DNA of 34,815 nucleotides from a virus. A program made the position numbers and the translations under genes. The DNA lies in the IMG/VR virus record IMGVR_UViG_3300047551_000666, positions 1 through 34,815 of that record, one strand, 5' to 3'. Shown in pieces: positions 7,790 to 34,815 of the stretch. The first letter of the stretch is position 1. Each line of letters begins with the position of its first letter. The notes under the pieces were generated by a model. The model was not told the origin of the DNA. It saw nothing but the letters and a program-made list of their open reading frames with translations, and did not search any database.

Positions 7790-7791
7790 CA

Positions 7792-10024: not shown

Positions 10025-11377
10025 ATGACAGACTTAGAAAAAGAGAGAATCAAAGTAGTTTACAGTTGGATTGGTCCTCGCGGTCCTATATGGAACACAG
10101 AACTCCCACATGTGTTGAGTTTCGCACAAGTTGCAGAAGGTGGTCAAACAACTTCTAGACATTGGTGGGCAGATGATCTATGGAATAGATTGTTTAGACA
10201 CCGCAAACATTCATATGAATTATATCCTGCACAATCTATTGAAATAGATGATGAGCGTCCTTTTGTATTTCCATTCTCATTGGCTTGGAGAATTCCATTT
10301 GAACGTTACTTTGTAGGTGGCACAGGATTGTTAGAATTCTCACATATGCCTTATCACTTACGTCATTTAGTAAGAAATTCAAATGGGTATATATTAGTAG
10401 ATTTGAGTGTTGAAGCATTCATGTCAGACAATGATATACGTTCTATTACAAGTTATTTTAGAGACAGTTGTGGTTTACCACTTAATAAAATAATTTATAT
10501 GACAGGATGTATGAATGCTAATCATTTATATGAACGCTACTGCCAAAAATTTAGAGTTCCTAACGATCCATTGAATCGTATGAGAGTAATTTCTTATCCA
10601 TCAAGTCAGCAAATATTTGCTACTAACATTGAAAATGGATCAGTATCAGAACCACCTTACGATGAAAATTTTGTTCCTGAAAAGTTATTCTTAATGTGGA
10701 ATCGTAGATTCAGAACACATAGAACACAACTTAGTTTGGCATTGTTTAAAGCAGGGTTAGTAGATAGAAGTTATATAAGTTTTAACTTACGTGATCCTGA
10801 GAAACAAGATGCAATTTTTAGAGATTCATTTCATCATACTACTGTTTCTTATTTAGGTATAACACCTCAAGACATTGATGATTTTAATGCTAAGTTGCCA
10901 TTAGTAATTGATGGTGCAACAAACATTAATGCAATGTGCGAAGATTTAGATAGTCAAACTAGACCTTACTATCATAACAGTCTAGTAAGTATTGTTACTG
11001 AAACTAATTGGGATCTTCCTGAAGTAACACTAACAGAGAAATCGTTTAAGCCATTAAAAGAAAAGCATCCTTTTATTATAGTGGGCGTACCCGGTGCATT
11101 GAAATCATTAAGAGAAATGGGATTCAAAACTTTCAATCAGTTTTGGCCAGAAGATTACGATGATATCGAAGATCCAAACATGCGAATGCAACGCATAGCA
11201 ACAGTTTGTCAATTGATTGGTAGTTGGAATCAAGATCAGATTAGAGACTTTAGAAGGCAAGCAAAGCCTATTATAGAACATAATTATGAAATTCTTAAGA
11301 GACCCACTAGTGAAATTGCTGTGAGAAAAATAACGGAGATCGTAAGAAGTAACCTTAGGAGAAATGCTGATAAATGA
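10025..11377 (+). CDS. GT10-like glycosyltransferase
   Basis: A 450-residue protein. The middle carries MWNRRFRTHRTQ, and the C-terminal half carries SLVSIVTETN, then LTEKSFKPLKEKHPFIIVG and a GFKTFNQFW segment. The TEK-x-x-K-P-x6-PFI region resembles the donor-binding end of GT10 fucosyltransferase-like enzymes, which use GDP-sugars. Three further members lie at 15160, 30740 and 34249. With a GDP-mannose epimerase-like gene directly after it (ATGA overlap), a GDP-linked sugar donor is plausible. By eye about 22 of its arginine codons are AGA against about 8 CGT, the reverse of the radical SAM genes upstream, which hints at separate acquisition. GT assignment is moderately sure, the donor is inferred. 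Confidence 0.6.
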   Translation: MTDLEKERIKVVYSWIGPRGPIWNTELPHVLSFAQVAEGGQTTSRHWWADDLWNRLFRHRKHSYELYPAQSIEIDDERPFVFPFSLAWRIPFERYFVGGTGLLEFSHMPYHLRHLVRNSNGYILVDLSVEAFMSDNDIRSITSYFRDSCGLPLNKIIYMTGCMNANHLYERYCQKFRVPNDPLNRMRVISYPSSQQIFATNIENGSVSEPPYDENFVPEKLFLMWNRRFRTHRTQLSLALFKAGLVDRSYISFNLRDPEKQDAIFRDSFHHTTVSYLGITPQDIDDFNAKLPLVIDGATNINAMCEDLDSQTRPYYHNSLVSIVTETNWDLPEVTLTEKSFKPLKEKHPFIIVGVPGALKSLREMGFKTFNQFWPEDYDDIEDPNMRMQRIATVCQLIGSWNQDQIRDFRRQAKPIIEHNYEILKRPTSEIAVRKITEIVRSNLRRNADK

Positions 11378-13242: not shown

Positions 13243-15163
13243 AAAGAAAATAAGTTTTGTTAGCCCTAACTTCCAACAAGGACCTAAGGAATTTAATGCA
13301 TATTATCTTCCTTATAGTCCTGCTGTCCTATGGAGTTATGTAGTACAGTTTCCTCATATCAATGATAACTTTGAGTTGGGTGACTTTATATGGCGAAGAG
13401 ACTTAATAGAAGAAGCAGTAGAATTACTTAAAGATAGTGATATTGTAGGGTTCAGTACCTACATTTGGAATCGTAGTTATAGCGCAGTACTAGGTAGAGA
13501 ACTAAAGAAGGCTAATCCTAATATTTTTATTATAGCAGGTGGACCTGAGTATCCTATTGAGAAGCCTGACTTCTTTAAAAAGTATCCCTTTATTGATGTA
13601 TGTGTTAAACTTGAAGGCGAAATTACTTTTAGAAAGATATTAGAAAATCTAATATTACCTGAGCCTGACTTTAAATCAATCCCCGGCTTACTAATTAATA
13701 ACAACGGTGAAACTATAGACACTGGCAGTAGCCCACGTATAGATGACTTAGATAAGATACCTAGTCCTTATTTGACAGGTATATTTGACAAGTTAATGGC
13801 GAAGCACCCTGAGATACGTTGGAACGCAACTTTAGAAACAAATCGTGGTTGCCCCTATGCATGTACATTTTGTGATTGGGGAAGTCTTACATACAATAAA
13901 GTTAAGAAGTTTAACCTTGAACGTGTATATGCTGAACTAGAATGGATAGGCAAAAAAGGGTTAGACTTTGTAAGCATCACTGATGCTAACTTTGGTATAT
14001 TCCCTGAACGTGATATGTTAATCGCTGACAAACTTATTGAAACGCAAAAGACATATGGTAATCCAAAGGCATATACGATTGCATGGGCAAAGAATCAAAA
14101 ACAAGAAGTTGTTGAAATTGTTCGTAAATTGATTTACGAAGGTGGAAGTAAGATTGGTCTAAACTTATCAGTTCAGACAATGGATGATAATGTGCTTGAT
14201 ATTATCAAACGTAAGAATCTTGAAATGAATAAGATTGAAGAAGTATTCAAAATGTGTGAAGAGCATAACATTCCTCTTTACACTGAATTAATATTAGGGT
14301 TACCAGGAGAGACATTAGAGAGTTGGAAAGAAAACTTCTTTAAGTTATACAAGAGCGGTAACCATACTGGTATCACGATTTATCAAGCACAGTTGCTTGA
14401 GAATGCTGAAATGAATTTGACACAACGTGGCCTATATAAGTTAGAAGGTCGTGTTGTTTATGATTATCTTGTTGGTACTTATAACGAACATGAATTACGT
14501 GAAGGTGTAGAAGTTGTAATCTCTACTAGAGATTTACCTAAAGAGAAAATGACACAAGCGCAACTTATAAGTTGGTTTCAAAATACCTTTCATATCAACG
14601 GCATAACAAATTATATTAGTAGAGTATTATATAAACAACAAGGTATTGAATATAGAGAGTTCTATGATAAACTTTGGAACCACATACAGAAAGATGAATG
14701 GTTAAAGAGTGAAGTAGACAGAATCGCAGACCACTATGGTAATTGGTCTAAACATGGACTTATTGACCATACTCCTATACAAGGTATGGAGATACATGGT
14801 TGGAATCTAGTCCATAGTACTACAATTAATCTACACAGTGAAGGAAAGCACAGTCATATTTTTGATGTAGTTGAAGATTTTTTACGTAGTGAGTTCACAA
14901 TAGAAGAATCATTATTGCAAGAACTAATGCTATTCCAACGTACATATCTTATCGACTATAAGGACTGTTCTAACTATCCTAAGTTACTAAATTTTAAACA
15001 TGATATTCCAGGATATGTGCAGGATATAGCAGAATTAAATACACCCTGTGTTTATGAATTTGATTTTCCCGAAGATAAACACCAGTCGTTACAACGATTC
15101 TGTGAGCAGATATTTTTTGCTAGACGCAGAAATTTTGGAAAATCATGGATTACTAAAAAATGA
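13235..15163 (+). CDS. radical SAM protein with B12-binding-like N-terminal domain
   Basis: A 642-residue protein counted from ATG 13235; a GTG at 13229 would add two residues. Residues 5-140 form a Rossmann-like B12-binding fold (ISFVSPN, DIVGFSTYIWN, IFIIAGGPEYP, EGEITF), but the Asp-x-His-x2-Gly cobalamin ligand motif is not seen, so it may not bind B12. The radical SAM triad C206-x3-C210-x2-C213 (RGCPYACTFC) follows, with ITDANFGIF and a LILGLPGET segment typical of the B12-type core. The last 230 residues are an unassigned extension. It starts 8 bases inside the SGNH gene and ends in an ATGA overlap. Substrate unknown. Confidence 0.85.
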   Translation: MSKKKISFVSPNFQQGPKEFNAYYLPYSPAVLWSYVVQFPHINDNFELGDFIWRRDLIEEAVELLKDSDIVGFSTYIWNRSYSAVLGRELKKANPNIFIIAGGPEYPIEKPDFFKKYPFIDVCVKLEGEITFRKILENLILPEPDFKSIPGLLINNNGETIDTGSSPRIDDLDKIPSPYLTGIFDKLMAKHPEIRWNATLETNRGCPYACTFCDWGSLTYNKVKKFNLERVYAELEWIGKKGLDFVSITDANFGIFPERDMLIADKLIETQKTYGNPKAYTIAWAKNQKQEVVEIVRKLIYEGGSKIGLNLSVQTMDDNVLDIIKRKNLEMNKIEEVFKMCEEHNIPLYTELILGLPGETLESWKENFFKLYKSGNHTGITIYQAQLLENAEMNLTQRGLYKLEGRVVYDYLVGTYNEHELREGVEVVISTRDLPKEKMTQAQLISWFQNTFHINGITNYISRVLYKQQGIEYREFYDKLWNHIQKDEWLKSEVDRIADHYGNWSKHGLIDHTPIQGMEIHGWNLVHSTTINLHSEGKHSHIFDVVEDFLRSEFTIEESLLQELMLFQRTYLIDYKDCSNYPKLLNFKHDIPGYVQDIAELNTPCVYEFDFPEDKHQSLQRFCEQIFFARRRNFGKSWITKK

Positions 15164-16299
15164 GTATAGAGATTGAAGATGAAAATATCTATATGAAATA
15201 CATGGTATCTAAACATACCGGAGTTCCATTAGATCACATAATTGTAGTTACTAGACACTTAAATAATAGCGCCGACAATAATACACATGTTTTTGTAGAT
15301 TTTTTACTTGAGAAGTTTATAAAAAACAATCGTATAAAAATTTATTTTAACCATCAATCTGAAGGTTTGCAACATGGTTTTTTAAAAAACGTTAATATAA
15401 TTTTTAATGAATTGGCAAAAAAGTGTAAGATAAATCTTGAACAATTCAATGTTGTGTCAGGAGCAGTTAACTGCCCTAGATTAATAGATGTTTACAAAAA
15501 TACTTGTTTGGAAAACGATTGGCATCTGTTCCCACTGTGGACAGATAGTTATTGGGAAACACACAACGTACCAAACTTACTACCGTTTGAAATAGATTTC
15601 AACCCTAAAACTAAACGCATACTATGTTTCAATGGTATTGCTAGAGTACATCGTATGGCATCAGTATTAGAAATGTTTAAAAGAAACATATTTGATAAAG
15701 CATATGTTTCTATTAATCCAACTCCATTTGATTTAACTAATGCAAATTTCCTCGAAATGCGTAGAATGTTAGGTGATAATGTTTTAGGATATCCCGACAT
15801 ATTGGAAAAGCATAAACATCTTTTCCCAATGAAACTTACGTTGGATAGTGACATAAAAAATGCATACATTATTAATGATTCAGATAGAAAATTATATAAA
15901 GACACAGTGGTGTCATTAATAAATGAGACAATGTTCACTAGTAAAGATCCTATTAAATTTAATTTTAGAGATAGACTCACACAGCCTTGCACGTTTGCTA
16001 CAGAAAAGACATGGAAAGCCTTTCAAGCATTTCATCCATTCATAATGTTGACAACACCCCATTTTTTAAAGGATATAAGGCATTTGGGTTATAGAACATT
16101 TTCACCTTATATAGATGAATCTTATGATGATATTGAAGATGATGCATTAAGATTTAAAAGAGTTATGGATGAGGTGGAAAGAATTGCCAATATGACAGAC
16201 AAACAGGTATATGATTTTCAACAAAACGTTAAGAAAATACTTGAGTTCAACAGTAAAATGATGAGAACAAAAAAACCTGAGTTTGTTAGAGCCCTATAA
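15160..16299 (+). CDS. GT10-like glycosyltransferase
   Basis: A 379-residue member of the same family as the gene at 10025. The central ILCFNGIARVHRMASVLEMF aligns with that protein's N-R-R-F-R-T-H-R helix. The C-terminal block has SLINET, TFATEKTWKAFQAFHPFIM and GYRTFSPY followed by YDDIEDD, which is nearly the same as in the other member. This block resembles the donor site of GT10-like enzymes. Arginine codons are mostly AGA. The stop codon TAA at 16297-16299 lies within a TATAAATA late promoter, so this gene closes one transcript while the next starts. Acceptor unknown. Confidence 0.6.
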   Translation: MSIEIEDENIYMKYMVSKHTGVPLDHIIVVTRHLNNSADNNTHVFVDFLLEKFIKNNRIKIYFNHQSEGLQHGFLKNVNIIFNELAKKCKINLEQFNVVSGAVNCPRLIDVYKNTCLENDWHLFPLWTDSYWETHNVPNLLPFEIDFNPKTKRILCFNGIARVHRMASVLEMFKRNIFDKAYVSINPTPFDLTNANFLEMRRMLGDNVLGYPDILEKHKHLFPMKLTLDSDIKNAYIINDSDRKLYKDTVVSLINETMFTSKDPIKFNFRDRLTQPCTFATEKTWKAFQAFHPFIMLTTPHFLKDIRHLGYRTFSPYIDESYDDIEDDALRFKRVMDEVERIANMTDKQVYDFQQNVKKILEFNSKMMRTKKPEFVRAL

Positions 16300-16320: not shown

Positions 16321-18276
16321 ATGAAAAAAGTAGCAATGATAGGTGTGGGTAAATTGGGACAAGATTGTGCCGAAGTTATGTTCGAAGCAGGACATGATGT
16401 TATTGGGTATGACGTTGAAGTTCGTAACCCAATGTTCCCAATGAAAGGCACAATAAAAGAAGCGGTAGAAGATAGAGATTTAATTTTTATAGCCGCACCC
16501 ACTCCTCATGATCCTATATATGGCGGTGAAACACCTACTAGTCATTTACCAAATAAAGATTTTGACTATTCAATAGTTAAAGGTATATTAAACGAAGTCA
16601 ACGCACATGTTACTAAGAATCAACTAGTAGTACTAATCAGTACAGTATTACCTGGAACAGTTAGAAATCAACTTGAACCATGTATCACAAATGCACGTTT
16701 CATCTACAACCCATATCTTATTGCTATGGGGACAATCAAATGGGATATGACTAATCCTGAAATGGTCATCATAGGAACTGATGATGGATCAGTAACCGGC
16801 GATGCTAAAGAATTGATTGACTTTTACAAGGGATTTATGCAGAATAATCCTAGATATGAAGTTGGTACATGGGACGAAGCAGAATCAATTAAGATTTTCT
16901 ACAATACATTCATCAGCACCAAATTGGCATTAGTCAATATGATACAAGACGTTGCAGAACGTAATGGTAATATCAATGTTGATATAGTAACCAATGCATT
17001 AGCAAATAGTACATATAGAATTATGGGTCCTGCGTATATGAAAGCAGGGTTGGGCGATGCAGGCGCATGTCATCCACGTGATAATATTGCATTGCGATAC
17101 TTAGCAGAACGTTTAGATTTGGGCTATGATTTGTTTGACGCTATTATGAAAGCACGTGAAGTTCAAGCAGAAAACATGGCACTAAAATGTTTAGAGCATG
17201 GTAAGAACGTTACGATAGTTGGTAAGGCATACAAACCTAAAGTACACTACACTAACGGTAGTGCTAGTATGTTAGTTGGACATTATGTTGAGAAACATGG
17301 TGGTACAGTAAATTACTATGATATCCATACCGGTGATAATGATTTAAAAACAGAATGGACTAACGTTTACCTAATTGGTTATTGGGAAGAATATGTAGAA
17401 CAGATAGTGTTCCCAAAACAAGTTACAGTAATTGACCCTTGGAGAAAATTAAAACAAAGTAATGTTAAGGTCATTCATTACGGTGATACTAGAAAGAAAT
17501 CAGATGTATCAGAGTTAAAGGATTTTAAAGTTTTTACTCACACCGCACCTAATGGCGCAAAAGTAGAATTAGTTCCTATAGATGTAGATTTACTTGACTC
17601 TGCTAAAATTGAAAGAGAATGGCAGTTAAACAGTGGTATCAAAGTAAAATCACCATTGATGTTTAATGGTGGAGGATTAGAATATAAAGATTTCTTAATT
17701 GAAACAATAAGAAGAACAGGCAAGTACACATACAATCGTGCATTTGAATGGTGTTCAGGGTTTGGTGTTTTAGGATTTGAAAGTTTAGGTATGAGTGTAT
17801 GTAATCATATCGTATTCTCAGACTATCATCCTAAGGCAATTGAAACTTGTTTAGACAATGCAAAAAGAAATAATTTAACACATTATGTCACAGGTTATGT
17901 AAGCCCAACAATAAGCGAGATACCTAAACATGAATTATGGGACTTAGTAATTTCTAATCCACCCCACGCCCCCGACCTTGACTCAATAGTTAAAGGTATG
18001 ATTGATGAAGGGCAAGACCCTAAGGCAGCATTAAATTCTGCTAGATTAATTGTTGATTCTAATTGGACAATTCATAAAGAATTTATGGAGAATATTATTC
18101 CGCATTTACAATCTGATGCAGATATATACCTAATAGAGAATTTACATTACGATTCCTTAGTACATTTGGGTAAATTAGCAGGTTTAAGATACATAAATTC
18201 TTACGAATATCCAGAAACACACTCGACAGGACATTCAAGGCATGTTATAATGCACTTTAAGGGTCCGATTAAATAA
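16321..18276 (+). CDS. fusion of nucleotide-sugar dehydrogenase and methyltransferase
   Basis: A 651-residue two-domain protein. Residues 1-390 resemble UDP-glucose/GDP-mannose 6-dehydrogenases: GVGKLG at 8-13 binds NAD, K191 and N195 (ESIKIFYNT) match the catalytic Lys and Asn, and C250 (GDAGACHPRDN) matches the cysteine that forms the thiohemiacetal. That family oxidises the C6 alcohol of a nucleotide-sugar to a uronate. Residues 400-651 are a class I SAM methyltransferase: motif I FEWCSGFGVLGFE at 475-487, acidic FSDYHP near 500 and NPPH at 546-549, the motif IV form seen in N-methyltransferases of the HemK type. The frame is continuous across the join. It may oxidise then methylate the same sugar, but the methyl acceptor is unknown. 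Confidence 0.78.
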   Translation: MKKVAMIGVGKLGQDCAEVMFEAGHDVIGYDVEVRNPMFPMKGTIKEAVEDRDLIFIAAPTPHDPIYGGETPTSHLPNKDFDYSIVKGILNEVNAHVTKNQLVVLISTVLPGTVRNQLEPCITNARFIYNPYLIAMGTIKWDMTNPEMVIIGTDDGSVTGDAKELIDFYKGFMQNNPRYEVGTWDEAESIKIFYNTFISTKLALVNMIQDVAERNGNINVDIVTNALANSTYRIMGPAYMKAGLGDAGACHPRDNIALRYLAERLDLGYDLFDAIMKAREVQAENMALKCLEHGKNVTIVGKAYKPKVHYTNGSASMLVGHYVEKHGGTVNYYDIHTGDNDLKTEWTNVYLIGYWEEYVEQIVFPKQVTVIDPWRKLKQSNVKVIHYGDTRKKSDVSELKDFKVFTHTAPNGAKVELVPIDVDLLDSAKIEREWQLNSGIKVKSPLMFNGGGLEYKDFLIETIRRTGKYTYNRAFEWCSGFGVLGFESLGMSVCNHIVFSDYHPKAIETCLDNAKRNNLTHYVTGYVSPTISEIPKHELWDLVISNPPHAPDLDSIVKGMIDEGQDPKAALNSARLIVDSNWTIHKEFMENIIPHLQSDADIYLIENLHYDSLVHLGKLAGLRYINSYEYPETHSTGHSRHVIMHFKGPIK

Positions 18277-21378: not shown

Positions 21379-21464
21379 GATGGATTAAAACTCTTATTAG
21401 AGAATATAAGTATAGAAAACGTTTAAAAGAATTACGTAAAAGAGACCCATTTATTTACAAATGA
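21369..21464 (+). CDS. 31-residue basic peptide gene before the carbamoyltransferase
   Basis: ATG 21369 opens a 31-codon frame rich in Arg and Lys, beginning MLIRWIKTLIREYK and ending RDPFIYK. It overlaps the end of the SGNH gene by 10 bases and the start of the carbamoyltransferase by 4 (ATGA), so it fills the gap exactly. A frame bounded this way by coupling overlaps on both sides is likely to be translated. The peptide would be an amphipathic, strongly basic helix. It might serve mainly to couple translation, or act as a small partner; neither can be decided from the sequence. Confidence 0.6.
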   Translation: MLIRWIKTLIREYKYRKRLKELRKRDPFIYK

Positions 21465-22939
21465 ATCACATAGGAATAAGTTGCGGTTTCCATGACGCTG
21501 GATTAAGTGTCATAGGAAATAACGGAGAAATACTATTTGCTGGTCATAGCGAACGCTACAGCAAATATAAACATGATAAAGACCTGTGCGGTGATATCGC
21601 AAGGGATGCCCTACGCCACATCACAGATGATTATCAGTTACACTATTACGAAAAACCATGGCTTAAGGCATTGCGTCAATTACGTGCAGGACAACGATTA
21701 GGTCCTTTCTTTATGAGTAGTATCATAGGACCTGCAGTAATGGAAGAGTTTGGTAATAGAAAAGTCAAAACACATATACATCATATGACGCATGCGGCAG
21801 CAGGATTTCAAACAAGTCCTTTTGATAACGCTACAGTAGTTGTTATCGATGCTATTGGAGAACTAGATTGTATTACAATTTGGGACGCTTGGTATGATGA
21901 CAATGGTATAGCGCAGTACAAAAAACTTTGGAGTAGACAATACCCCAACAGTATAGGACTCATGTACAGTGCATTGACCGATTATGTTGGATTAAAGCCA
22001 ATGGATGAAGAATATATTCTTATGGGTATGGCTGCATACGGTAAAGTAAAATACTATAACAAAATTGAAAGCGAGTTCTTAGAAGATAGAACTGCTATGA
22101 CATTCAAGCGTAACCTGCACATAGGTATAGAAGATAAGTTCTTTGGTGAAGCAGACAACATGGACATAGCCGCAAGCGCACAGGCTCTTACTGAAGATTT
22201 GATTCAAGTAGTAATGAGTAAAGCACGTATGATGGGTAAGAGCCGTAACCTTGTATATGGTGGCGGTGTTGCACTTAACTGTCTTGCAAATAGATTGTTA
22301 GGTAACTTCTTTGAGAAGATGTGGATCATGCCTAACCCAGGAGATGCAGGTAATAGTTTAGGCGCAGCCGCATTGGGATATGGCAAAAAACTTATATGGC
22401 ATGATGCCTTCTTAGGACATAATATAGACGGTGATTATCCTGTAGAAGCAGTAATACAAGAATTAGAAACAAATAAAATGGTAGGCGTTGCTAATGGTAG
22501 AGCAGAGTTTGGACCACGTGCTTTAGGCAATCGCAGTTTATTAGCCGATCCGCGCGGTTCTGAAATTAAGGATAAAGTAAATGAAATTAAACGCAGACAA
22601 AAATTTAGACCGTTTGCTCCTGTTATACTTGAAGAACATGTCCATGATTATTTTGATATGCCTCGCGGCTGGAATGACAGTAGGTATATGCAGGTCATCG
22701 CTCGTTGCAGGCATGTTGACTTATTCCCTGCTATCGTTCATTATGATGGCACCAGTCGTGTACAAACTGTACAAAGAGACGGCACGGGAATACGAAAGTT
22801 ATTAGAAGCCTGGTATGCTAAAACAGGTTGTCCTATGCTACTTAACACTAGTTTAAATATCCGCGGAGAACCTATGGTTAATGATAGATTTGATGCTGAT
22901 AGATTTGAAAAATTATATAATTTGAGAGTTATTTCGTAA
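21461..22939 (+). CDS. NodU/CmcH/TobZ-type carbamoyltransferase
   Basis: A 492-residue O-carbamoyltransferase. The N-terminal GISCGFHDAGLSVI with His11 and AGHSERYSKYKHD are family signatures. H107-x3-H111 (HHMTH) and VVVIDAIGE near 127-133 match the metal and adenylate-binding Kae1-like domain. YGGGVALNC and GRAEFGPRALGNRSLLADPR mark the second half. The family makes carbamoyl-adenylate from carbamoyl phosphate and ATP and places the carbamoyl group on a hydroxyl of a sugar or antibiotic. It is shorter than the 560-600 residues of TobZ or NodU. The acceptor is probably the sugar built by the surrounding genes. Only one base separates it from the giant gene. Confidence 0.88.
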   Translation: MNHIGISCGFHDAGLSVIGNNGEILFAGHSERYSKYKHDKDLCGDIARDALRHITDDYQLHYYEKPWLKALRQLRAGQRLGPFFMSSIIGPAVMEEFGNRKVKTHIHHMTHAAAGFQTSPFDNATVVVIDAIGELDCITIWDAWYDDNGIAQYKKLWSRQYPNSIGLMYSALTDYVGLKPMDEEYILMGMAAYGKVKYYNKIESEFLEDRTAMTFKRNLHIGIEDKFFGEADNMDIAASAQALTEDLIQVVMSKARMMGKSRNLVYGGGVALNCLANRLLGNFFEKMWIMPNPGDAGNSLGAAALGYGKKLIWHDAFLGHNIDGDYPVEAVIQELETNKMVGVANGRAEFGPRALGNRSLLADPRGSEIKDKVNEIKRRQKFRPFAPVILEEHVHDYFDMPRGWNDSRYMQVIARCRHVDLFPAIVHYDGTSRVQTVQRDGTGIRKLLEAWYAKTGCPMLLNTSLNIRGEPMVNDRFDADRFEKLYNLRVIS

Positions 22940-22940
22940 T

Positions 22941-25900
22941 ATGCTAAGAGATGTTTTTTACTTTGGAAAAAAGCCAAACGCACATCCCAGAGAAAGACTT
23001 GCTAAATCATTAGATGATGCAAGAAAGCAAGCCACAACCAAAGACTTTTGGATAATCAATGAATTCTGCGATTACAAAAACTTTGATTGGGACTTTGACT
23101 TTGAGTTTTTACCTGATGAAGATGTATGGGCTGAAGATCATAATAATGTATGGCCCAGTGTTTATCAAAAAGATAGCGGCACATGGTTATGTGCTAAACA
23201 AAAAAGTGATATCACAATATACAGAAATGATGTACAACCATTAAAACGTAAAAACGAAAAGAATGATAACTGGGTATTACATGATTTAATTGACGAAACT
23301 AAATTCGATTTTGGTTGGCATCCTGACCCTACTGACCCTCCTTATATCTATAAGTGGGGTAGTAAGTTTTACCCAGCACAGTTTCAAACTGTATTAGAGT
23401 ATCGTGTATCGGGGGCAACGGATGTTAAGTACATGGATACTATTGTTGAGTTACTACCACAACATGAACGTTGGGTAGAAAATCATAAGATTGACAGGAA
23501 CAAGTTTGACATGTCATGGAGACCTGATCCAATGGATCCTCTATACATTTATGTTTGGGGCAATCCTCATATAGACCCTACATTAGAATCTACACTAGAA
23601 TATCATACACCGGGCGCCACTGATAAAAAGTATATGCCTGAAAAACTTGTTGTATTACCGCAATACGAACGCTGGACACAACATGTTAAGATAGATGAAT
23701 CTAAGTTTGATTTGAGTTGGAGACCTGACCCACGTGAACCTGCATTTAACTACGTATGGGGCAACAAATATGAACCGGGTGAAATCAAACCCACATTAGA
23801 ATATAGTATGCCAGGTGCAACTCAAGTCAAATATATGACTGACCCTGTACCAGTACTGCCTCAATATGAACGTTGGGTAGAACATGTAGCAGTTGATAAA
23901 ACTAAATTTGATTTCAGTTGGAGACCTGATCCACGTGAGCCGGCGTACAACTATGTATGGGGTAACAAGTATGAGCCAGCAGAAATTAAACCCACATTAG
24001 AATATCGCATGCCAAATGCCACTGATGTAAAATACATGAGTGAATGTGTAGACGTATTACCGCAAACAGAACGCTGGACTATACTAGACGAAACAGTTGA
24101 CAAAGATAAGTTTGATTTTACATGGCGCCCTGACCCAAGAGAACCTCCGTATATCTATACTTGGGGCAACAAATACGAACCAGCAGAAATTAAACCAACA
24201 TTAGAATATCATGTTTTGGGCGCAACTGAGCGCAAGTACATGGGTAATGATGTTGCCGTGTTACCACAGTGGGATCGCTGGGTAGAAATAACACCAGTTG
24301 ATAAAAAGAAAAGCAGTAAGAATGGTTTTGATTTCAGTTGGAGACCTGATCCACGTGAGCCTGCATATATCTATACTTGGGGAAACAAATATGAACCGGC
24401 AGAAATTACTCCAACGTTAGAATATCGTATGCCTTCTGCAACAGAGGTCAAGTATATGACTGAACAGGTAGAAGTATTGCCACAGTGGAATCGCTGGATA
24501 GAACACGTACCCGTAGATAAGTTACGTAGTGAAGAGAATGGTTTCGATTTTAGTTGGAGACCAGACCCACGTGAACCTGCGTTTAACTATGTATGGGGTA
24601 ACAAATTTGAAGATGCTGAGATAAAACCCACATTAGAGTATCGAATGCCTAATGCAACCGATATAAAATACATGTCTGAAAGATTAGAGGTTCAACCTCA
24701 ATGGGACCGTTGGATAGAAAATACCCCAGTTGATAAAAAGAAAAGCAGTAAAAATGGTTTTGATTTTAGTTGGAGACCAGACCCACGTGAGCCAGCATAT
24801 ATCTATACTTGGGGGAACAAATACGAACCAGCAGAGATTAAACCTACACTAGAGTATATCGTACCCGGCGCAACTGAGCGCAAATATATGCCTGAATGTG
24901 TAGAAGTACTACCCCAATTGGACCGTTGGATAGAACATACCCCTGTTGATAAGTTACGTAGTGAAGAGAATGGTTTCGATTTCAGTTGGAGACCAGACCC
25001 ACGTGAACCAGCGTTTAATTATGTATGGGGTAATAAGTTTGAAGATGCCGAAATGATACCTACGTTAGAGTATCGTATGCCAGATGCAACACAAGTCAAA
25101 TACATGCTAGAACGTGTTGATGTATTACCACAGTGGGACCGTTGGACAATACTTGAAGAAGTAGTTAAGTCAACATTTGACTTTAGTTGGCGCCCAGACC
25201 CACGTGAGCCTGCATTAATTTATGTATTTGGTAATGAATTATATGACGGCACAATTATGCCAACCATTGAATATAGAATGGAGGGCGCAACTGAAAAGAA
25301 ATATATCAATCATTGGACTAAGCCTACATTAAAACCAAATAAAAAACTATTTGAATTCTTAGAAGATAGTGATGGGTTAGATTATAGTTGGAGACCTAAT
25401 CCAACTAGCCCACCATATATCTATGCGTGGGGAAATCAATGGAATAAGCCAGAAGATAAAGTAAGTGTACAGTATGTTGTCGAAGGTGCAACAGAATACA
25501 AGTATATGAGTGAACGTGCTATACGCAAACACTGCATGGACAACTGGATTATACCTAGTGATGTTGATGTTAAGGGATTTGACTTTAGTTGGGAACCTAG
25601 CCCAGCAGACCCTGCATATATCTATGAGTTTGGTACACAATGGCAAAAAACAGGTGGACCAAAATATGTTGTGCCTGGCGCAACACAAACAAAATATGTT
25701 GATACATTTAAAGTAAAGAAGTTGCCTAGCAAGGCCAATTGGATTATACCTAAGAATGTAGACGTTACAAACTTTGACTTCAGTTGGCACCCAGATGCGA
25801 CAAGTCCTGCATATACATATCACTTTGCTACTCAGTGGGCAACTAGTGGTGGACCGATTTATGCAGTACCGGGCGCCACAGAAGTTAAGTATATTGATGA

Positions 25901-28900
25901 TCAGGTTGCTAAGATGTTGCCTGATAAAACAAACTGGGAATATGATACTAATCTAATTGACGATACAACATTCGATTTCAGTTGGCATCCATATGTAGAA
26001 GATCAACCGTATATCTATGTGTTTGGCACACAATGGCAAAAGACTGGTGGCCCGCGTTATATAACCCCAGGCTGTCATAAAAACAGTCCTGTAAAGTATA
26101 TTGATACACGTATCTTAAAAGCAAAGCGTAAACCATGCATGGATAACTGGGTTGTATTAGATAACTTAAACGTTATTGATTTTGATTATAGTTGGCACCC
26201 AGATGATACTGAAGAAGCATATATCTATCAATTCGGTAATAATCAATATCCTGCTGAGATAATGCCCACTATAGAGTATACTGTGCAAGGCGCAAAGCAA
26301 TTTAAGTATGTGCATGATATCGTTGCTACGTTAGGACCTGATAAAACAAACTGGGAAATTCCAGACAACATTGATGATACTGGCTTTGATTATAGTTGGA
26401 AACCTAACCCTAAAGACCCGTCATACATATATGAGTTTGGTACTCAGTGGCAAAAGACGGGAGGTCCTCGCTATGTAACATATAGAGCGACCGAAGTCAA
26501 ATACATTGATACACAAAAAGTAAAACGTTTAGAATCTAAAGACAATTGGACTGTTCCAAATAATTGCGATATTACAGGATTTGATTTTAGTTGGCATCCA
26601 GATGATACAAGTCCTCCGTATGTTTATTACTTCCCCACTCAGTGGGCACTAAGCGGCGGACCAGTATACACAGTACCTGGTGCTACTGAAGTTAAGTATG
26701 TTGAAGATCAAACTGCTATTGCTACTGTTGATAAAACTAACTGGATAGTACCAGATGATATTGATGCAGATAGTTTCGACTTTAGTTGGCATCCATATGT
26801 AGAAGATCAACCTTATATCTATCAATTCGGTACTCAATGGCAAAAGACGGGTGGACCAAGATATGTTACACCAGGTTGTCATAAGAATAGTCCTGTCAAA
26901 TATATTGACACACGTATTTTAAAAGCAAAAAAGAAATCTTCAATTAAGAATTGGGAGATACCTGATAACTTAGATGTTAAAGACTTTGACTTTAGTTGGC
27001 ATCCAGATGATACTGAAGAGCCATTCATTTATCAATTTGGTACTCAATGGCAAAAGACGGGTGGCCCTCGCTATGTAGTTCATAATGCAAAGGCTTTTAA
27101 GTATATTGATTTACAAAAAGCAAAACATATGCCGTCAATGGACAACTGGGACATTCCTGCATATGTTGATGTTGATAGTTTTGATTTTAGTTGGCATCCA
27201 GATGATACCGGAGAGCCATATAACTATGTGTTCCCTACTGAGTATCAACAACAGGGTGGACCTGTATATAAGATGCATGGTGCAGATAGTGAAGCATATC
27301 TAAATCATCCTGTTGCAAAGACTAAGCCACAACTTGAACGTTGGGAGATTCCTAATAACGTAGACCTAACTGATTTTAAACTCAACTGGCACCCACATCC
27401 TAAGGATCCGCCCTACATCTATCAGTTTGGTACGCAATGGCAAAAAACGGGTGGTCCTAAGTATATCGTAGAAGGTGCTACTGAAGTTAAGTACCTAGAT
27501 ATTAGTAAGGTTAAAGTATTACCTAACAAGAAGAACTGGCAAGTTATGCCTGGATTAAAGATTGATGACTTTGATTACACTTGGCATCCAGATAGTACTG
27601 AAGAACCTTATATCTATGTGTTTGGTAACACACAATACTCAGCAGAAAGTATGCCTACTATTAAGTACGTAGTACCCGGTGCTACAGAACTAAAGTATGT
27701 ACATGATATTGTAGCAAAACTTGCACCTAACAAAAAGAACTGGCATGAGATTATACCTATAGATAAGGATGAGTTTGATTATAGTTGGATACCTGATCCT
27801 AATAGTCCTCCTTATATCTATGTGTTTGGTAATCAATGGAATAGAGCAGAGTTAGAATCTACTGTTGAATATCGTGTACCTGGGGCAACAGAATACACAT
27901 ACGTACAAGATATTGTTGCTAAGGTTAAACCCAATAAAAAGAATTGGAAGATAACAGGCTTAATTGATGAGTCAAAGTTTGACTTCAGTTGGAGACCTAA
28001 TCCCAAAGATCCTGAGTACATTTATCAGTTTGGTACACAACATCAAAAGACAGGTGGACCTAGATATATTGTTAAAGGTGCTACGCAAATAAAATACGTA
28101 GAAGATATTAAAGCAGTAGCATTACCTAACAAAAAGAATTGGGATATTCCTGAGAACCTTGATATAGCAGACTTTGACTTCAGTTGGCATCCAGATGACA
28201 CTGACCCGCCATTCATTTATCAGTATGGTACTCAGTGGGCATTGACTGGTGGACCAAGATATGTAGTGCCCGGTGCGACTAGTACAAAGTACGTTGAAGG
28301 TGTTGTCGCTAAAGTAGGTCCTAACATGCAGAACTGGGAAGTACCAGATGACATTGCAGTTAAAGAATTTGACTTTAGTTGGCACCCATACGCAGAAGAT
28401 GAACCTTTTATATATCAGTTTGGTACACAGCATCAAAAGACTGGTGGTCCAAGGTATATAGTCCCTGGTGCAACTAAAGTAAAGTATATTGACAAACGTA
28501 TTTTAAAAGCACGTAAACTAACTAGAAAATCTAATTGGAGAATACCTGCAGGCATTAATACTGCTAAGTTTGACTTCAGTTGGCATCCAGATGATACAGC
28601 ACCGCCATACATATATCAATTTGGTACGATAGAGGATCCTATTGATGGTCCTAAGTATCTTACTCCAAACAATAACGGAGAAACAGTTTACTTAAACAGA
28701 ATTGAACTATCAGCAGACAACGTAATAGAGGAACCAAAGCATGTTGACTATCCTAAATATCATATTGTAACTACACTAGAAGATTTGATTGAAGAGCATC
28801 CAACTGAAATCTTTTGGGCTATGAGTTCTGAAGTTGATTATACTTCATTTGATTTTGATTGGAGACCTAACATTGAACAAGCACAATATGTACACGTGTT

Positions 28901-30740
28901 TGGTCAGAGTGAAAGTATTAAGTCACAAACATACTTTGTCAATGCTGTGTTATGGTATAAGGGATTCAATGAGTTTAATTTCGTAGAAGAACAAGTACAA
29001 AAGAAAGTCAATGACTTAGATATGTTCTTTGTAGACAGAGGAAATCCTGAGGCACAAAAGCGTTTCGATACACTTAAGGCTAGATATCCTAAACTACAAA
29101 AGACACGTTATCTAAACAGTTGGGTCGATACTGTTAATCGTTGTTGCAATCGTGCAAGTAGCACATTATTATGGGTATTGAATAGTGAATTAGATTATAC
29201 TAATTTCAATTTTGAATACTATCCTAACCCTTGGCAGACTAAAATGGTTCATGTGTTTGGTACACAATGGAGTCATTGGGGTACAACGTTTATGGTTAAC
29301 CGTGAAACATTCTCAGTTGATACAAAGTATATAAAGATCATTGAGCATTTAAGCAATCTCAACTTTGTTAAAGAGATTAAAGCATTTGCTACTAAATGCA
29401 CTTATGATATTGTGTTGATTGATCATGGTAATAAACAAACTAATGATATTGCTGAATACTTAAAAACTAAATCAATCGGTGATGTATCTACATTCAAGTA
29501 TGATGTTAGTTACTTGAACACATTAAAGAATATAGTTAATAAGTTGCCTGCAAAGAAAGAACATTATATTTGGATTTGCAGTAGCGTTTGCGATTATAAA
29601 GGATTTGATTTTAGTTACATCATTGATCCATTCTCTCGGGACAATCTACATGTATTCCCCAGCGAAAAGCAAAAGTTTGGTGACACATTCTTCGTAGACG
29701 TAAACAAATTGCGTGAGTTAATCAATAGTGTTGAGTTGCTTGAAAATTATAAAGTCAATTACAATCAAGCACAACGAGCAACTAGATTACCTGCACCAGT
29801 TGTAGTTGTCAATGAAGATACACATAGCAACGCTGTTAAGTATTTACAAGACTTTCCATACACTGTAATGGTATCAGAAGATAACAAAGATATTGACGGT
29901 GTAGAAATAGAACCAATGTCATTGTGGGATCCTTCAAGTAAGAACATTATAGTTACAAGCGTTGGTGCTACAAGAATTATAGTTCCAAATGAAATTAAGG
30001 ATCATGTAAAAACACAACTGTACGATTATCCGTATATTAAGAAGTCATCTAAACTATCAATGTCTACACCATTAGATATTGTATTTTTAAGTAACGGTGA
30101 AACAGGTGCAGAAGAGAACTACGAACACTTGTTGAAGATTACTAAAGGACTGAAGAACAGAGTTGTTAGAGTCGATGGTATAAATGGTCGTGTGCAAGCA
30201 TATCACGCATCAGCACAAGCAAGTAACACACCATGGGCGTTCACTGTATTTGCTAAACTAAAAGTTAGTGCTAAGTTTGACTTTAACTGGCAACCTGATA
30301 GAATGCAAGTACCAAAGCATTATGTGTTCCAAGCAAAGAATCCTGTTAATGGATTGATCTATGGACACCAAGCAATGATTGCATACAACAAGAATCTTAC
30401 GTTGAAGAACGAAGGATTAGGTTTAGACTTTACAATGGATGATCCACATGAAGTTGTAGAGTTACTGTCAGGTGTTGCTAATTATAACACAGATGCATTC
30501 AGTACATGGAGAACTGCATTTAGAGAAGTTATTAAACTACAATGGGACCGCACCGAAGTTAGTGACAAGAGATTAGAAACTTGGATATCCAAAGCAGAAG
30601 GTGAATATGCTCAATATAGTTTAGACGGTGCAAGAGATGCACTGGCATATTACTCAGAAGTTGAGGGTAGATTTGATAAGTTAAAACTCAGTTATGAATG
30701 GGAATGGCTGAAGAACTATTTTAATAAGAAATATAAGTGA
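22941..30740 (+). CDS. giant 2599-residue repeat protein with glycosyltransferase-like C-terminus
   Basis: Residues 1-105 form a distinct N-terminus (DVFYFGKKPNAHPRERLAKS; later FDWDFDFEFLPDEDVW). Residues about 106-1906 hold about 27 repeats of 55-72 residues with the core F-D-F-S-W-(R/H)-P-D-x4-P-x-Y-I-Y-x-(W/F)-G-N/T. Repeats 1-11 mostly have WGNKYEPAEI followed by TLEY; repeats 12-27 mostly have FGTQWQKTGGP. Three longer divergent units follow near 1956, 2075 and 2208, the last two with strands such as DMFFVDRGN and DIVLIDHGN before the W-x3-S-x2-D-Y-x2-F core. Residues 2377-2599 resemble the GT-like protein at 1737 but lack its D-G-D motif. There is no signal peptide. Function unknown; a scaffold, a substrate of the nearby enzymes or a degenerate multi-domain transferase are all possible. 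Confidence 0.85.
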   Translation: MLRDVFYFGKKPNAHPRERLAKSLDDARKQATTKDFWIINEFCDYKNFDWDFDFEFLPDEDVWAEDHNNVWPSVYQKDSGTWLCAKQKSDITIYRNDVQPLKRKNEKNDNWVLHDLIDETKFDFGWHPDPTDPPYIYKWGSKFYPAQFQTVLEYRVSGATDVKYMDTIVELLPQHERWVENHKIDRNKFDMSWRPDPMDPLYIYVWGNPHIDPTLESTLEYHTPGATDKKYMPEKLVVLPQYERWTQHVKIDESKFDLSWRPDPREPAFNYVWGNKYEPGEIKPTLEYSMPGATQVKYMTDPVPVLPQYERWVEHVAVDKTKFDFSWRPDPREPAYNYVWGNKYEPAEIKPTLEYRMPNATDVKYMSECVDVLPQTERWTILDETVDKDKFDFTWRPDPREPPYIYTWGNKYEPAEIKPTLEYHVLGATERKYMGNDVAVLPQWDRWVEITPVDKKKSSKNGFDFSWRPDPREPAYIYTWGNKYEPAEITPTLEYRMPSATEVKYMTEQVEVLPQWNRWIEHVPVDKLRSEENGFDFSWRPDPREPAFNYVWGNKFEDAEIKPTLEYRMPNATDIKYMSERLEVQPQWDRWIENTPVDKKKSSKNGFDFSWRPDPREPAYIYTWGNKYEPAEIKPTLEYIVPGATERKYMPECVEVLPQLDRWIEHTPVDKLRSEENGFDFSWRPDPREPAFNYVWGNKFEDAEMIPTLEYRMPDATQVKYMLERVDVLPQWDRWTILEEVVKSTFDFSWRPDPREPALIYVFGNELYDGTIMPTIEYRMEGATEKKYINHWTKPTLKPNKKLFEFLEDSDGLDYSWRPNPTSPPYIYAWGNQWNKPEDKVSVQYVVEGATEYKYMSERAIRKHCMDNWIIPSDVDVKGFDFSWEPSPADPAYIYEFGTQWQKTGGPKYVVPGATQTKYVDTFKVKKLPSKANWIIPKNVDVTNFDFSWHPDATSPAYTYHFATQWATSGGPIYAVPGATEVKYIDDQVAKMLPDKTNWEYDTNLIDDTTFDFSWHPYVEDQPYIYVFGTQWQKTGGPRYITPGCHKNSPVKYIDTRILKAKRKPCMDNWVVLDNLNVIDFDYSWHPDDTEEAYIYQFGNNQYPAEIMPTIEYTVQGAKQFKYVHDIVATLGPDKTNWEIPDNIDDTGFDYSWKPNPKDPSYIYEFGTQWQKTGGPRYVTYRATEVKYIDTQKVKRLESKDNWTVPNNCDITGFDFSWHPDDTSPPYVYYFPTQWALSGGPVYTVPGATEVKYVEDQTAIATVDKTNWIVPDDIDADSFDFSWHPYVEDQPYIYQFGTQWQKTGGPRYVTPGCHKNSPVKYIDTRILKAKKKSSIKNWEIPDNLDVKDFDFSWHPDDTEEPFIYQFGTQWQKTGGPRYVVHNAKAFKYIDLQKAKHMPSMDNWDIPAYVDVDSFDFSWHPDDTGEPYNYVFPTEYQQQGGPVYKMHGADSEAYLNHPVAKTKPQLERWEIPNNVDLTDFKLNWHPHPKDPPYIYQFGTQWQKTGGPKYIVEGATEVKYLDISKVKVLPNKKNWQVMPGLKIDDFDYTWHPDSTEEPYIYVFGNTQYSAESMPTIKYVVPGATELKYVHDIVAKLAPNKKNWHEIIPIDKDEFDYSWIPDPNSPPYIYVFGNQWNRAELESTVEYRVPGATEYTYVQDIVAKVKPNKKNWKITGLIDESKFDFSWRPNPKDPEYIYQFGTQHQKTGGPRYIVKGATQIKYVEDIKAVALPNKKNWDIPENLDIADFDFSWHPDDTDPPFIYQYGTQWALTGGPRYVVPGATSTKYVEGVVAKVGPNMQNWEVPDDIAVKEFDFSWHPYAEDEPFIYQFGTQHQKTGGPRYIVPGATKVKYIDKRILKARKLTRKSNWRIPAGINTAKFDFSWHPDDTAPPYIYQFGTIEDPIDGPKYLTPNNNGETVYLNRIELSADNVIEEPKHVDYPKYHIVTTLEDLIEEHPTEIFWAMSSEVDYTSFDFDWRPNIEQAQYVHVFGQSESIKSQTYFVNAVLWYKGFNEFNFVEEQVQKKVNDLDMFFVDRGNPEAQKRFDTLKARYPKLQKTRYLNSWVDTVNRCCNRASSTLLWVLNSELDYTNFNFEYYPNPWQTKMVHVFGTQWSHWGTTFMVNRETFSVDTKYIKIIEHLSNLNFVKEIKAFATKCTYDIVLIDHGNKQTNDIAEYLKTKSIGDVSTFKYDVSYLNTLKNIVNKLPAKKEHYIWICSSVCDYKGFDFSYIIDPFSRDNLHVFPSEKQKFGDTFFVDVNKLRELINSVELLENYKVNYNQAQRATRLPAPVVVVNEDTHSNAVKYLQDFPYTVMVSEDNKDIDGVEIEPMSLWDPSSKNIIVTSVGATRIIVPNEIKDHVKTQLYDYPYIKKSSKLSMSTPLDIVFLSNGETGAEENYEHLLKITKGLKNRVVRVDGINGRVQAYHASAQASNTPWAFTVFAKLKVSAKFDFNWQPDRMQVPKHYVFQAKNPVNGLIYGHQAMIAYNKNLTLKNEGLGLDFTMDDPHEVVELLSGVANYNTDAFSTWRTAFREVIKLQWDRTEVSDKRLETWISKAEGEYAQYSLDGARDALAYYSEVEGRFDKLKLSYEWEWLKNYFNKKYK
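23270..28660 (+). repeat. array of about 27 coding repeats in the giant gene
   Basis: Imperfect tandem repeats of roughly 165-216 bases, in frame throughout. At the DNA level most copies have drifted, but some are nearly identical. The unit with GATAAGTTACGTAGTGAAGA occurs at 24516 and again at 24948, and ATAAAAAGAAAAGCAGTA occurs at 24301 and 24733: both pairs are 432 bases apart. A four-repeat super-unit recurs with an 804-base offset (25981 and 26785). The array therefore grew by duplication of blocks of two and four repeats. Confidence 0.85.
24301..25164 (+). repeat. 432-base tandem duplication of a two-repeat block
   Basis: Two adjacent 432-base units (144 residues each, about 24301-24732 and 24733-25164) carrying repeats 6+7 and 8+9. 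The insert KKKSSKNG or KLRSEENG before the FDFSWRPDPREP core alternates in the same order in both units. Differences are mainly at third codon positions, so this is one of the latest expansions of the array. Exact edges are approximate. Confidence 0.7.
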
Positions 30741-31738
30741 TGAACTATGCAATATTAGACATATGGTTCAATAAAGAAAAAAATGAAAACTTTTACAAAC
30801 GTATAAAAAGTGAAAAGTTCGATAAGATTTTTCTTTTTGCAATGCATGAGCCTGATTATTGGACAATGTTAAACTTTTATCCCATATTAGAAGAATGCGA
30901 AAAGCAAAATAAACAGTTGAATATTATAACCAGTGTTGAAGAATATTTCAATGATATTGAACCTAAAAATTTAAATGTTACTTTTGAGAAATGGCCGACC
31001 TTTTGGTTAAACAGAACCTTAGGTAATTTAGATTTGTCAAGGCAATTTAGTAATACTACATTTAAATATCCATATATTATGATGGTTAACAAGGCACACC
31101 TTTGGAGATGCCAACTATTAGATTTATTAGGTAAACATAAATTGATTCATAAAGGTGCAGTATCTTGGCACCAACTACCTAAATTTCCATATACCTGGAA
31201 ATATGTTAGACCTAGAATAATGACCTTAACAGACCACTACCGTAGGGACATGCATCATGGTAAAGTACCAGAGGAATATTTTAATAGTTTTGTTCAGTTA
31301 GTAAGTGAAACTAGTATTGACGCTAGATGGACAACAGAAAAAACAATTACACCCTTGATGTTAGGTAAACCGTTTATTGTTGCAGCCTCACCATACTTTC
31401 ATAAAATGTTGAAAGATTGGGGAATAGAATTGTATGATGAGTTGTTTGACTATTCATTTGATTCAGTATTAGATACAGAGCAAAGATATGATATGTTATT
31501 AGAAAACATTAAACGTATATGTGAGTATTCACCTAGCGAACTAAGTGTACTATATGAAACGGTCAAAGATAAAATAGAATTCAATAAAAAGAAAATTTTT
31601 GAGATAACATCAGACTTTAATAATTTTCCTGCCACAGCAAAAGAAGTAGTTGATCATTATTTGAAAACAGGAATATCATTGCATGCAGTAACAACTTCTC
31701 ATTACGAAAACCTAAAAAAGGCTAAATTATTTTGTTAA
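30740..31738 (+). CDS. GT10-like glycosyltransferase
   Basis: A 332-residue protein from ATG 30740, which overlaps the last base of the giant gene (TGATG); a GTG at 30737 would add one residue. The N-terminus (YAILDIWFNKEK, then FYKRIKSEK) matches the truncated gene at 34249. The middle RCQLLDLLGKHKLI with SWHQL and the C-terminal LVSETSIDARWTTEKTITPL with GKPFIVAASPYF match the donor-site block of the genes at 10025 and 15160. It is shorter than those two. Its place directly after the giant repeat protein suggests that it glycosylates that protein or shares its acceptor; inference only. Confidence 0.6.
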   Translation: MNYAILDIWFNKEKNENFYKRIKSEKFDKIFLFAMHEPDYWTMLNFYPILEECEKQNKQLNIITSVEEYFNDIEPKNLNVTFEKWPTFWLNRTLGNLDLSRQFSNTTFKYPYIMMVNKAHLWRCQLLDLLGKHKLIHKGAVSWHQLPKFPYTWKYVRPRIMTLTDHYRRDMHHGKVPEEYFNSFVQLVSETSIDARWTTEKTITPLMLGKPFIVAASPYFHKMLKDWGIELYDELFDYSFDSVLDTEQRYDMLLENIKRICEYSPSELSVLYETVKDKIEFNKKKIFEITSDFNNFPATAKEVVDHYLKTGISLHAVTTSHYENLKKAKLFC

Positions 31739-33914: not shown

Positions 33915-34289
33915 ATGAAATTAATTGTCGCAGGTATTCTTAGTCTATTTGCCGTAAGTGCTTCAGCACAGGGTATTGATTGCCGATCTGGTGTAGATCA
34001 CAAACATGCATGGTGTGGAGGTATGGTACAGGTACAACATCATCATGGTCACCGTCACTTTCACCGTGCTCCTCCCGTTGTAGTCTATCGTGATTATAAC
34101 TGGGTAGCCCCTGTAGTAGGTGGCGTTATTCTTGGGGCAGTAATTAATGAAGCCGCACGTCCTCGTGTTGTAGAACAACCTGTAATCGTACAGCCTGTTC
34201 AGCCTACTCAACCAGTGTGTACTGAATGGCGTGAAGTGATGCAGAGCGATGGAACAATTGCAAAAGAGAGAACCTGCTACCAAAAGTAA
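33915..34289 (+). CDS. small secreted His-rich protein with a glycine-rich hydrophobic segment
   Basis: A 124-residue protein with ribosome site TAGGAGAA before ATG 33915. Residues 1-19 are a Sec signal peptide (MKLIVAGILSLFAVSASAQ). A His-rich stretch (QHHHGHRHFHRAPP, about 41-54) could bind metal. WVAPVVGGVILGAVINEA (about 63-80) is a short glycine-zipper-like hydrophobic segment. A proline/valine/glutamine linker follows, and the C-terminus holds two cysteines (VCTEWRE and RTCYQK) that may form a disulfide in the periplasm. No lipoprotein box is seen. It resembles small glycine-zipper envelope proteins of Proteobacteria. With the beta-barrel protein nearby it suggests that the phage remodels the host envelope. 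Confidence 0.7.
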   Translation: MKLIVAGILSLFAVSASAQGIDCRSGVDHKHAWCGGMVQVQHHHGHRHFHRAPPVVVYRDYNWVAPVVGGVILGAVINEAARPRVVEQPVIVQPVQPTQPVCTEWREVMQSDGTIAKERTCYQK

Positions 34290-34815
34290 ATTTCCCAATG
34301 CACCTGAGTTCATATGCGTAGATGCATGGGACTCAGTTGTTGCAAAGGAAGAATTTTATCAAAAAATCCTTAAATCAAAATCTGAAACAATAGTTTATTG
34401 TGGTCAGAATGAGTGGAATTTCCACTCTGCTTATCTTAGATTTAATGATACTTTAAAGTTCTTACAGTCACAAGGTAGAACATATCATGTGATGACCGGA
34501 GCATATCCGGATACCGATGATCCTACTCATCCTTCAATGAAAGTTTATTATTGGATAGACTTTTATATGAAAAAGGCATTTAATAACTGCATTTTTATTA
34601 GTAAAGAAATGAGTGGACAAAACTTTGTTGATTTTGAATATTACAAGCAAAGTTTGAGTAGAACAAGTTTTAATCATTATCTTACATCATTAAACTATAG
34701 ATCGCATAATCATCGTTGTCATCTTATTGACTTGATGGCAAAGAATAATCTTATTGAAAATAATGCAATTACATGGCACCAATTGATTGGCCCCGGCGGT
34801 CATGCTTCTATGTAT
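34249..34815 (+). CDS. GT10-like glycosyltransferase, 3' truncated by the window
   Basis: A frame open from ATG 34249 to the window end (189 residues, incomplete). It is the first start after an in-frame stop at 34237 and overlaps the preceding gene by 41 bases; a TTG at 34258 is an alternative. FICVDAWDSVVAKEEFYQKI near the start aligns with the N-terminus of the gene at 30740, and RCHLIDLMAKNNLI with TWHQLIGPGG aligns with that protein's R-C-Q-L-L-D-L-L-G and SWHQL. It is therefore the fourth member of this family. The donor-site block would lie beyond the window. The long overlap without a clear ribosome site points to reinitiation or a misplaced start. Confidence 0.6.
   Translation, partial: MEQLQKREPATKSKFPNAPEFICVDAWDSVVAKEEFYQKILKSKSETIVYCGQNEWNFHSAYLRFNDTLKFLQSQGRTYHVMTGAYPDTDDPTHPSMKVYYWIDFYMKKAFNNCIFISKEMSGQNFVDFEYYKQSLSRTSFNHYLTSLNYRSHNHRCHLIDLMAKNNLIENNAITWHQLIGPGGHASMY

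Follow-up and report, generated by a model that had tools for sequence, protein, structure and literature searches.

Most, although not all, glycosyltransferases of the GT-A fold carry a DxD motif where the third core strand ends. The common core of the GT-A fold enzymes (GT2-like) has been described (PMC7185993). According to an excerpt of the same article, some known active members also lack DxD, the pseudo-glycosyltransferase COSMC (GT31) has lost both DxD and xED, and metal-independent members include GT14, in which basic side chains take over, and prokaryotic GT6 (PMC7185993). Here, we describe a giant protein (P0001) of freshwater phages that appears to be built almost wholly of degenerate or shortened copies of one GT-A domain, an enzyme that the phages seem to have turned into a long, conserved and probably non-catalytic array. 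No paper on such arrays was found in the open-access literature.

The window, i.e. the whole stretch of DNA that was analysed, is a virus record of 34,815 bases, and its relevant features are listed in Table 1. No usable family was found for P0001 or for the stand-alone protein P0002 in Pfam, PHROGs, NCBIfam or PADLOC, and neither protein matched the curated Pfam GT2 families PF00535 and PF13641 above the cut-off. The hits of P0001 to Zn_ribbon_16 (E 0.009) and Acetate_kinase (E 0.2) were below the cut-offs and were disregarded. P0003 shows sub-threshold Pfam matches (PF13641, E 7e-4, 20.1 bits with a cut-off of 27; PF00535, 14 of 23.3 bits). Sequence searches against solved structures returned just one chain (E 0.33), and annotated phage records yielded no matches for P0002, for the short repeats or for the IM domain described below.

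Table 1. Features of the window and units of the giant protein
Feature	Position	Strand	Description
P0002	1737..2690	+	317-aa stand-alone GT-A-type protein; intact DGD (Asp67, Asp69) and WRxxFRE helix; reference intact domain
Nucleotide-sugar dehydrogenase fused to methyltransferase	16321-18276		NCBIfam
Carbamoyltransferase	21461..22939	+	immediately 5' of the giant gene
Giant protein P0001	22941..30740	+	single ORF, 2599 aa
N-terminal unit	22941..23261	+	residues 1-107; weak matches to long units in P0001, E about 0.01
27 short repeats (S)	23262..28715	+	62-70 aa each, residues 108-1925; start at the DGD-strand position, without the nucleotide-binding first half
432-bp (two-unit) tandem DNA duplication	24261..25146	+	2.1 copies, 81% matches
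LU1	28734..29021	+	residues 1932-2027; one strand-helix pair ahead of strand 3, no strand 1-helix 1
LU2	29010..29360	+	residues 2024-2140; full-length degenerate GT-A unit (predicted); DGD site reads NSE or SSE
LU3	29376..29744	+	residues 2146-2268; full-length degenerate GT-A unit (predicted); DGD site without the Asp pair
LU4	29745..30056	+	residues 2269-2372; resembles a truncated LU1-type unit by predicted strand/helix order only
CT	30060..30716	+	residues 2374-2592; complete GT-A-type domain (predicted); DGD replaced by F-A-K, WRTAFRE helix kept

Judging only from its motif and predicted fold, P0002 is most likely the intact transferase of the locus. Radical SAM genes lie near P0002: the gene at 2690 belongs to N_Twi_rSAM (NCBIfam), and that at 5337 matches SPASM and Radical_SAM. 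The region 2690-10019 contains six successive ORFs with radical SAM-like cysteine motifs, of which the first and third were recognized by family match and the remainder by eye. Four other proteins of the window (10025-11377, 15160-16299, 30737-31738 and 34249-34815) are partly alike by eye; three of them were scanned and gave no Pfam matches, and it is possible that they are glycosyltransferases of another family. In 60 of the 80 giant-protein loci, the fetched flank contains a relative of the carbamoyltransferase (median distance 0).

The T4-type major capsid gene (Gp23) was detected in seven of the eight large records with P0002 or the giant gene and in none of the 14 cellular controls, and these records are therefore regarded as phages; several are >300 kb. 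Gp23 was used in place of phrog_2, which was discarded as a phage marker because it was also detected in 11 of the 14 cellular controls. P0002 has one ortholog in each of the 12 large records searched, and in seven of these its profile also found the C-terminal domain (CT) of a giant protein.

The earlier note had proposed that the C-terminus of the giant protein aligns with the protein encoded at 1737 (P0002), and this was borne out. BLASTP aligned residues 2378-2540 of P0001 with residues 12-187 of P0002 (30% identity, E 3e-9 for this one single comparison), and the three pairs of segments that had been quoted (DGVKG/DGING, AINGLRYG/PVNGLIYG and AWRAGFREG/TWRTAFREV) are all present in the alignment. 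Profile-profile comparison of the P0002 and CT families by hhalign gave 98.5% (E 3e-15, 185 columns), and none of 100 column shuffles was as good. In addition, jackhmmer started from P0002 gathered the CT domains of giant proteins collectively, with 32 new targets added in round 2 (post-inclusion E-values are not independent). CT is homologous to P0002. The interval considered in the earlier note, 28690-30740, spans the end of the last short repeat, the four long units and CT, and its first base is out of the ORF frame. The loss of the D-G-D motif from the C-terminus, also proposed there, is real: Lys replaces the second Asp in all 81 distinct CT domains, where the site reads mostly F-A-K, while all 34 P0002 relatives, like all 63 rows of the combined P0002 and IM alignment, have both Asp67 and Asp69. 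The two intact groups share 39 conserved positions, of which CT keeps 23, including E12, R31, W146, R151 and E152; other near-invariant positions have been replaced as well (Y10N, P27N, W84F and G98Q).

Structure prediction using AlphaFold2 yielded a model of the tail of the giant protein (pLDDT 83.5, pTM 0.56) and a model of P0002 (pLDDT 81.5, pTM 0.81). Foldseek comparison of the tail model with BFVD identified two proteins of uncultured Caudovirales phage, A0A6J5LK21 (E 3e-83, 36% identity) and A0A6J5L5L5 (E 2e-78, 34%), as members of the same family; both are named 'Uncharacterized protein' without attached analysis in the table of hits. Individual domains were compared with known structures using VIA and matched GT-A-type folds: residues 6-162 of P0002 and the CT model match 9h6l (Z 9.3, rmsd 3.2, 136 aligned and Z 11.4, rmsd 3.1, 142 aligned, respectively), LU2 matches 2e8b (Z 10.5, rmsd 2.5, 124 aligned), and LU3 matches 1h4c (Z 9.4, rmsd 3.0, 126 aligned). 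These Z values of 9-11 are moderate, and LU2 and LU3 match nucleotidyltransferases (MobA, IspD and GlmU) of the same fold class. According to DSSP of both models, P0002, CT, LU2 and LU3 share the order strand-helix-strand-helix-strand, followed by more strands, and are thus predicted to have the Rossmann-like beta-alpha-beta-alpha-beta start of GT-A, with strands and a helix following. One strand-helix pair precedes strand 3 in LU1 and LU4, and none precedes it in the S units, which lack strand 1-helix 1-strand 2-helix 2 altogether; the S units are best described as GT-A-derived units, not GT-A domains. Because the series runs from full-length units through units without strand 1 and helix 1 to units without the whole first half, it points to graded truncation from the N-terminus. 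From the general GT-A layout, the lost part would be the donor-binding half. LU4 has no profile similarity to any other unit, and it was retained as a possible unit on the strand order only. The N-terminal unit matches MU (see below), LU3, LU1 or LU2 in 33 of the 62 complete relatives and is probably a further truncated GT-A unit.

The profile of the short repeat identified the 27 S units and gave weaker matches in the long units as well as in CT (residues 2432-2471, E 2e-4). The long units had been proposed to carry the W-x3-S-x2-D-Y-x2-F core of the short repeats, and profile comparisons are in agreement with this (98% for LU1-LU2, 98% for LU2-LU3 and 96% for LU2-S). By profile-profile comparison, S matches LU1 at 97.5% and LU2 at 96.4%, and the registers of CT-S, CT-LU2 and LU2-S agree with one another. 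When the transferases were pooled, the match to S reached 80.8% over 45 columns, a score that none of 60 shuffles reached, and none of 100 shuffles was as good as the CT-S match. The P0002 profile by itself scored <1% against S or the long units and did not find the short repeats; the intact transferases alone matched S at only 18.8%, with none of 60 shuffles reaching the score. The link of the short repeats to the transferases therefore rests on intermediates. Of 91 distinct proteins, just 10 gave a match of a single S profile to CT (i-E about 0.02), and LU3 and LU4 were matched in none. The failure of the direct P0002-S comparison and the 18.8% reached by the intact transferases speak for the view that S is a small beta repeat of unrelated origin, similar to the transferase core by chance or by convergence on an aromatic-rich strand motif. 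However, S-LU1, S-LU2 and LU2-IM (96.8%) all match in one register, and the shuffling results given above for the pooled transferases and for CT also argue against that view, which we consider very unlikely. The long units, the short repeats and P0002 thus appear to share a GT-A core, with the short repeats lacking its first half, as the earlier note had supposed; S is placed in this scheme by the chain of profiles.

The intermediates include a family that we refer to as IM. One record encodes a 528-aa protein with two P0002-like domains, DGD being present in both, and the second domain of this protein has 208 relatives among viral contigs, the best 80 of which were kept. All of the most frequent IM variants listed have D-G-D or D-A-D at the motif site, and both Asp residues are invariant in the 43-row IM alignment. 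The IM profile matches P0002 (99.8%), CT (100%), LU2, LU3 (74%) and the MU units (98.0%), the latter being units of ~98 aa, up to eight of which lie ahead of the intact domain in some IM proteins. By these profile matches, IM, with its intact DGD or DAD, connects P0002 to CT, to LU2 and to the MU units of its own proteins. The intact transferases alone match MU at 97.7% and LU2 at 95.7% (none of 60 shuffles reached the score in either case). An earlier MU profile had been iterated with inclusion, so that the E-values it gave with the intact transferase lack independence. With a clean MU-only profile, 60 of 66 distinct proteins gave a match within the intact transferase, in the same register (i-E 2e-11 at best and 2e-5 at worst; reporting used a cut on the conditional E-value, and some of the listed i-E values are >1e-3). 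From the profile registers, the MU match begins at helix 2.

Two tandem P0002-like domains with DGD in both are present in a protein of locus L125 (781-2364, minus strand), and 12 distinct ORFs are fusions of P0002-type and IM-type domains. In addition, IM-type domains occur in contigs of bacterial MAGs (L216 at 5027-8200, L213, L215, L217, L218, L219 and L222) with radical SAM genes nearby, six of which were scanned in five loci and the others recognized by sequence only; a P0002-type domain accompanies the IM-type domain in L213, L215, L216 and L217. At least some IM loci look chromosomal, because the IM domain of L222 adjoins uvrA. The two GT-A proteins paired with radical SAM/SPASM enzymes may constitute a conserved system of their own.

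The proposed amplification of the repeats is directly visible. The 432-bp duplication, which sits within a stretch of 216-bp period (23907-25146), is a recent amplification, and the 62 complete relatives that have two or more S units (867-3084 aa) contain 2-33 of them each. CT forms the C-terminal end in all 62 complete S-array proteins, and the entire LU1-LU2-LU3-LU4-CT tail is present in 60 of them; the count is pooled from loci of a tail query and of a short-repeat query, and the tail query by itself would favour CT. The short-repeat query contributed the best 80 of 257 relatives, another relative search the best 80 of 404, and the tail-locus subset comprised 23 of 30 tail loci plus the window. 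From 97 distinct S-containing ORFs, 35 that were cut by locus ends or had fewer than two S units were left out of the 62. In locus L109 (7461-11808), the giant gene is broken into two frames near its end (1308 + 140 aa) by a frameshift or an assembly error. In a tree of the core, S and LU1-3 are separated from IM, P0002, CT and MU (99/97), and S forms one branch (96/89). This unrooted tree is based on 75 columns and 110 rows with long branches that meet, and it therefore merely suggests that the S and MU arrays arose by two separate amplifications.

By alignment-column counts, a DxD with both Asp residues is present in none of 350 S units and in one of 56 MU units, and D-x-D is absent among the triplets listed for LU1, LU2 and LU3. 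The dN/dS values calculated for five pairs of relatives, in some of which dS is saturated, are mostly <0.1 in all segments; the highest, 0.215 (S units) and 0.161 (LU4), come from one pair, and those of CT are 0.026-0.065. A sequencing artefact or a pseudogene was ruled out by the 62 complete ORFs and the purifying selection. The description of the repeats as remnants of a glycosyltransferase fold holds with regard to the common core, the loss of the first half in S and the amplification. If decay is meant, it does not hold, because strong purifying selection acts on every part and the motif site of CT has undergone a fixed replacement by Lys, not random change.

A rival explanation is that CT may still be an active, metal-independent transferase, in which the Lys stands in for the metal as in GT14, and that the array would be an arm that presents its substrate. 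The invariance of the Lys, the 23 retained positions and the low dN/dS of CT are in line with this idea, as is the precedent of the metal-free GT14 and prokaryotic GT6 enzymes, with basic side chains named for GT14 in the excerpt cited above (PMC7185993). However, Y10, P27, W84 and G98 have been replaced as well, and every large record searched has a separate intact P0002; we regard an active CT as unlikely.

We lean towards the reading that the giant protein is a modular array derived from one ancestral GT-A domain by shortening and amplification, and that it most likely serves as a non-catalytic scaffold or glycan-binding arm. The ancestral glycosyltransferase domain would have given rise to the complete CT and to the complete but degenerate LU2 and LU3. 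Other units would have been shortened from the N-terminal side, with removal of the donor (nucleotide-sugar) half and retention of the acceptor-side half, and the short form would then have been amplified, its number still changing. This direction is deduced from the completeness of the intact domain, and the order of shortening is likewise presumed. The array most likely transfers no sugar and may form the long scaffold or glycan-binding arm of a phage glycan-building locus, alongside P0002 as the intact transferase and the carbamoyltransferase; CT may be a pseudo-enzyme, or else a metal-free transferase with the invariant Lys replacing the metal. This functional reading is drawn from the anatomy of the protein and its neighbour genes.

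The very variable copy number of S and the two-unit DNA duplications, as expected for repeats that set length or mediate binding, would also fit a virion or adhesin-like surface protein, the repeats of which set its length or bind host glycans and for which the transferase was a mere source of the fold. The location of the gene among glycan-building genes, with carbamoyltransferase relatives in most flanks, speaks against a surface protein, and no virion family was matched in Pfam or PHROGs, which is weak evidence because nothing usable matched at all. Such a role seems rather improbable to us. Beyond the preferred scaffold or glycan-binding array, we can raise a broader proposal as a doubtful possibility: phages may have made a new class of tandem repeats by cutting off the donor half of a transferase and multiplying the acceptor half, independently at least twice. 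The S arrays would belong to freshwater phages, some >300 kb and with a T4-type capsid gene, and the MU arrays with an intact transferase to other phages; a tape of acceptor half-sites would hold the glycan while the other enzymes of the locus decorate it.

Across many related phages, these results connect an intact enzyme fold, via a full but degenerate domain, to a repeat of ~65 residues that retains less than half of the fold; this traceable series makes the giant family a testable case for enzyme domains becoming repeat proteins. The results also name a group of proteins, reaching about 3000 residues, whose annotation is 'uncharacterized' and which the four family libraries searched do not recognise. 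The strand/helix order, the DGD that closes strand 3 in both P0002 and IM, and the VIA matches of the P0002 and giant-tail models to B4GALNT1 (9h6l), 6p61, WrtF and others resemble the GT-A (GT2-like) enzymes, from which the giant protein differs in consisting of only degenerate domains and N-terminally truncated units in a long tandem. Like GT14, CT lacks DxD and has a basic residue at that place, but unlike the metal-independent enzymes of GT14 and GT6, it has changes at other conserved positions. COSMC is a single domain. As in COSMC, a GT-A-type domain has been maintained in the giant protein despite the loss of the metal motif, whereas the giant protein consists of an entire array that includes units reduced to less than half of the fold.
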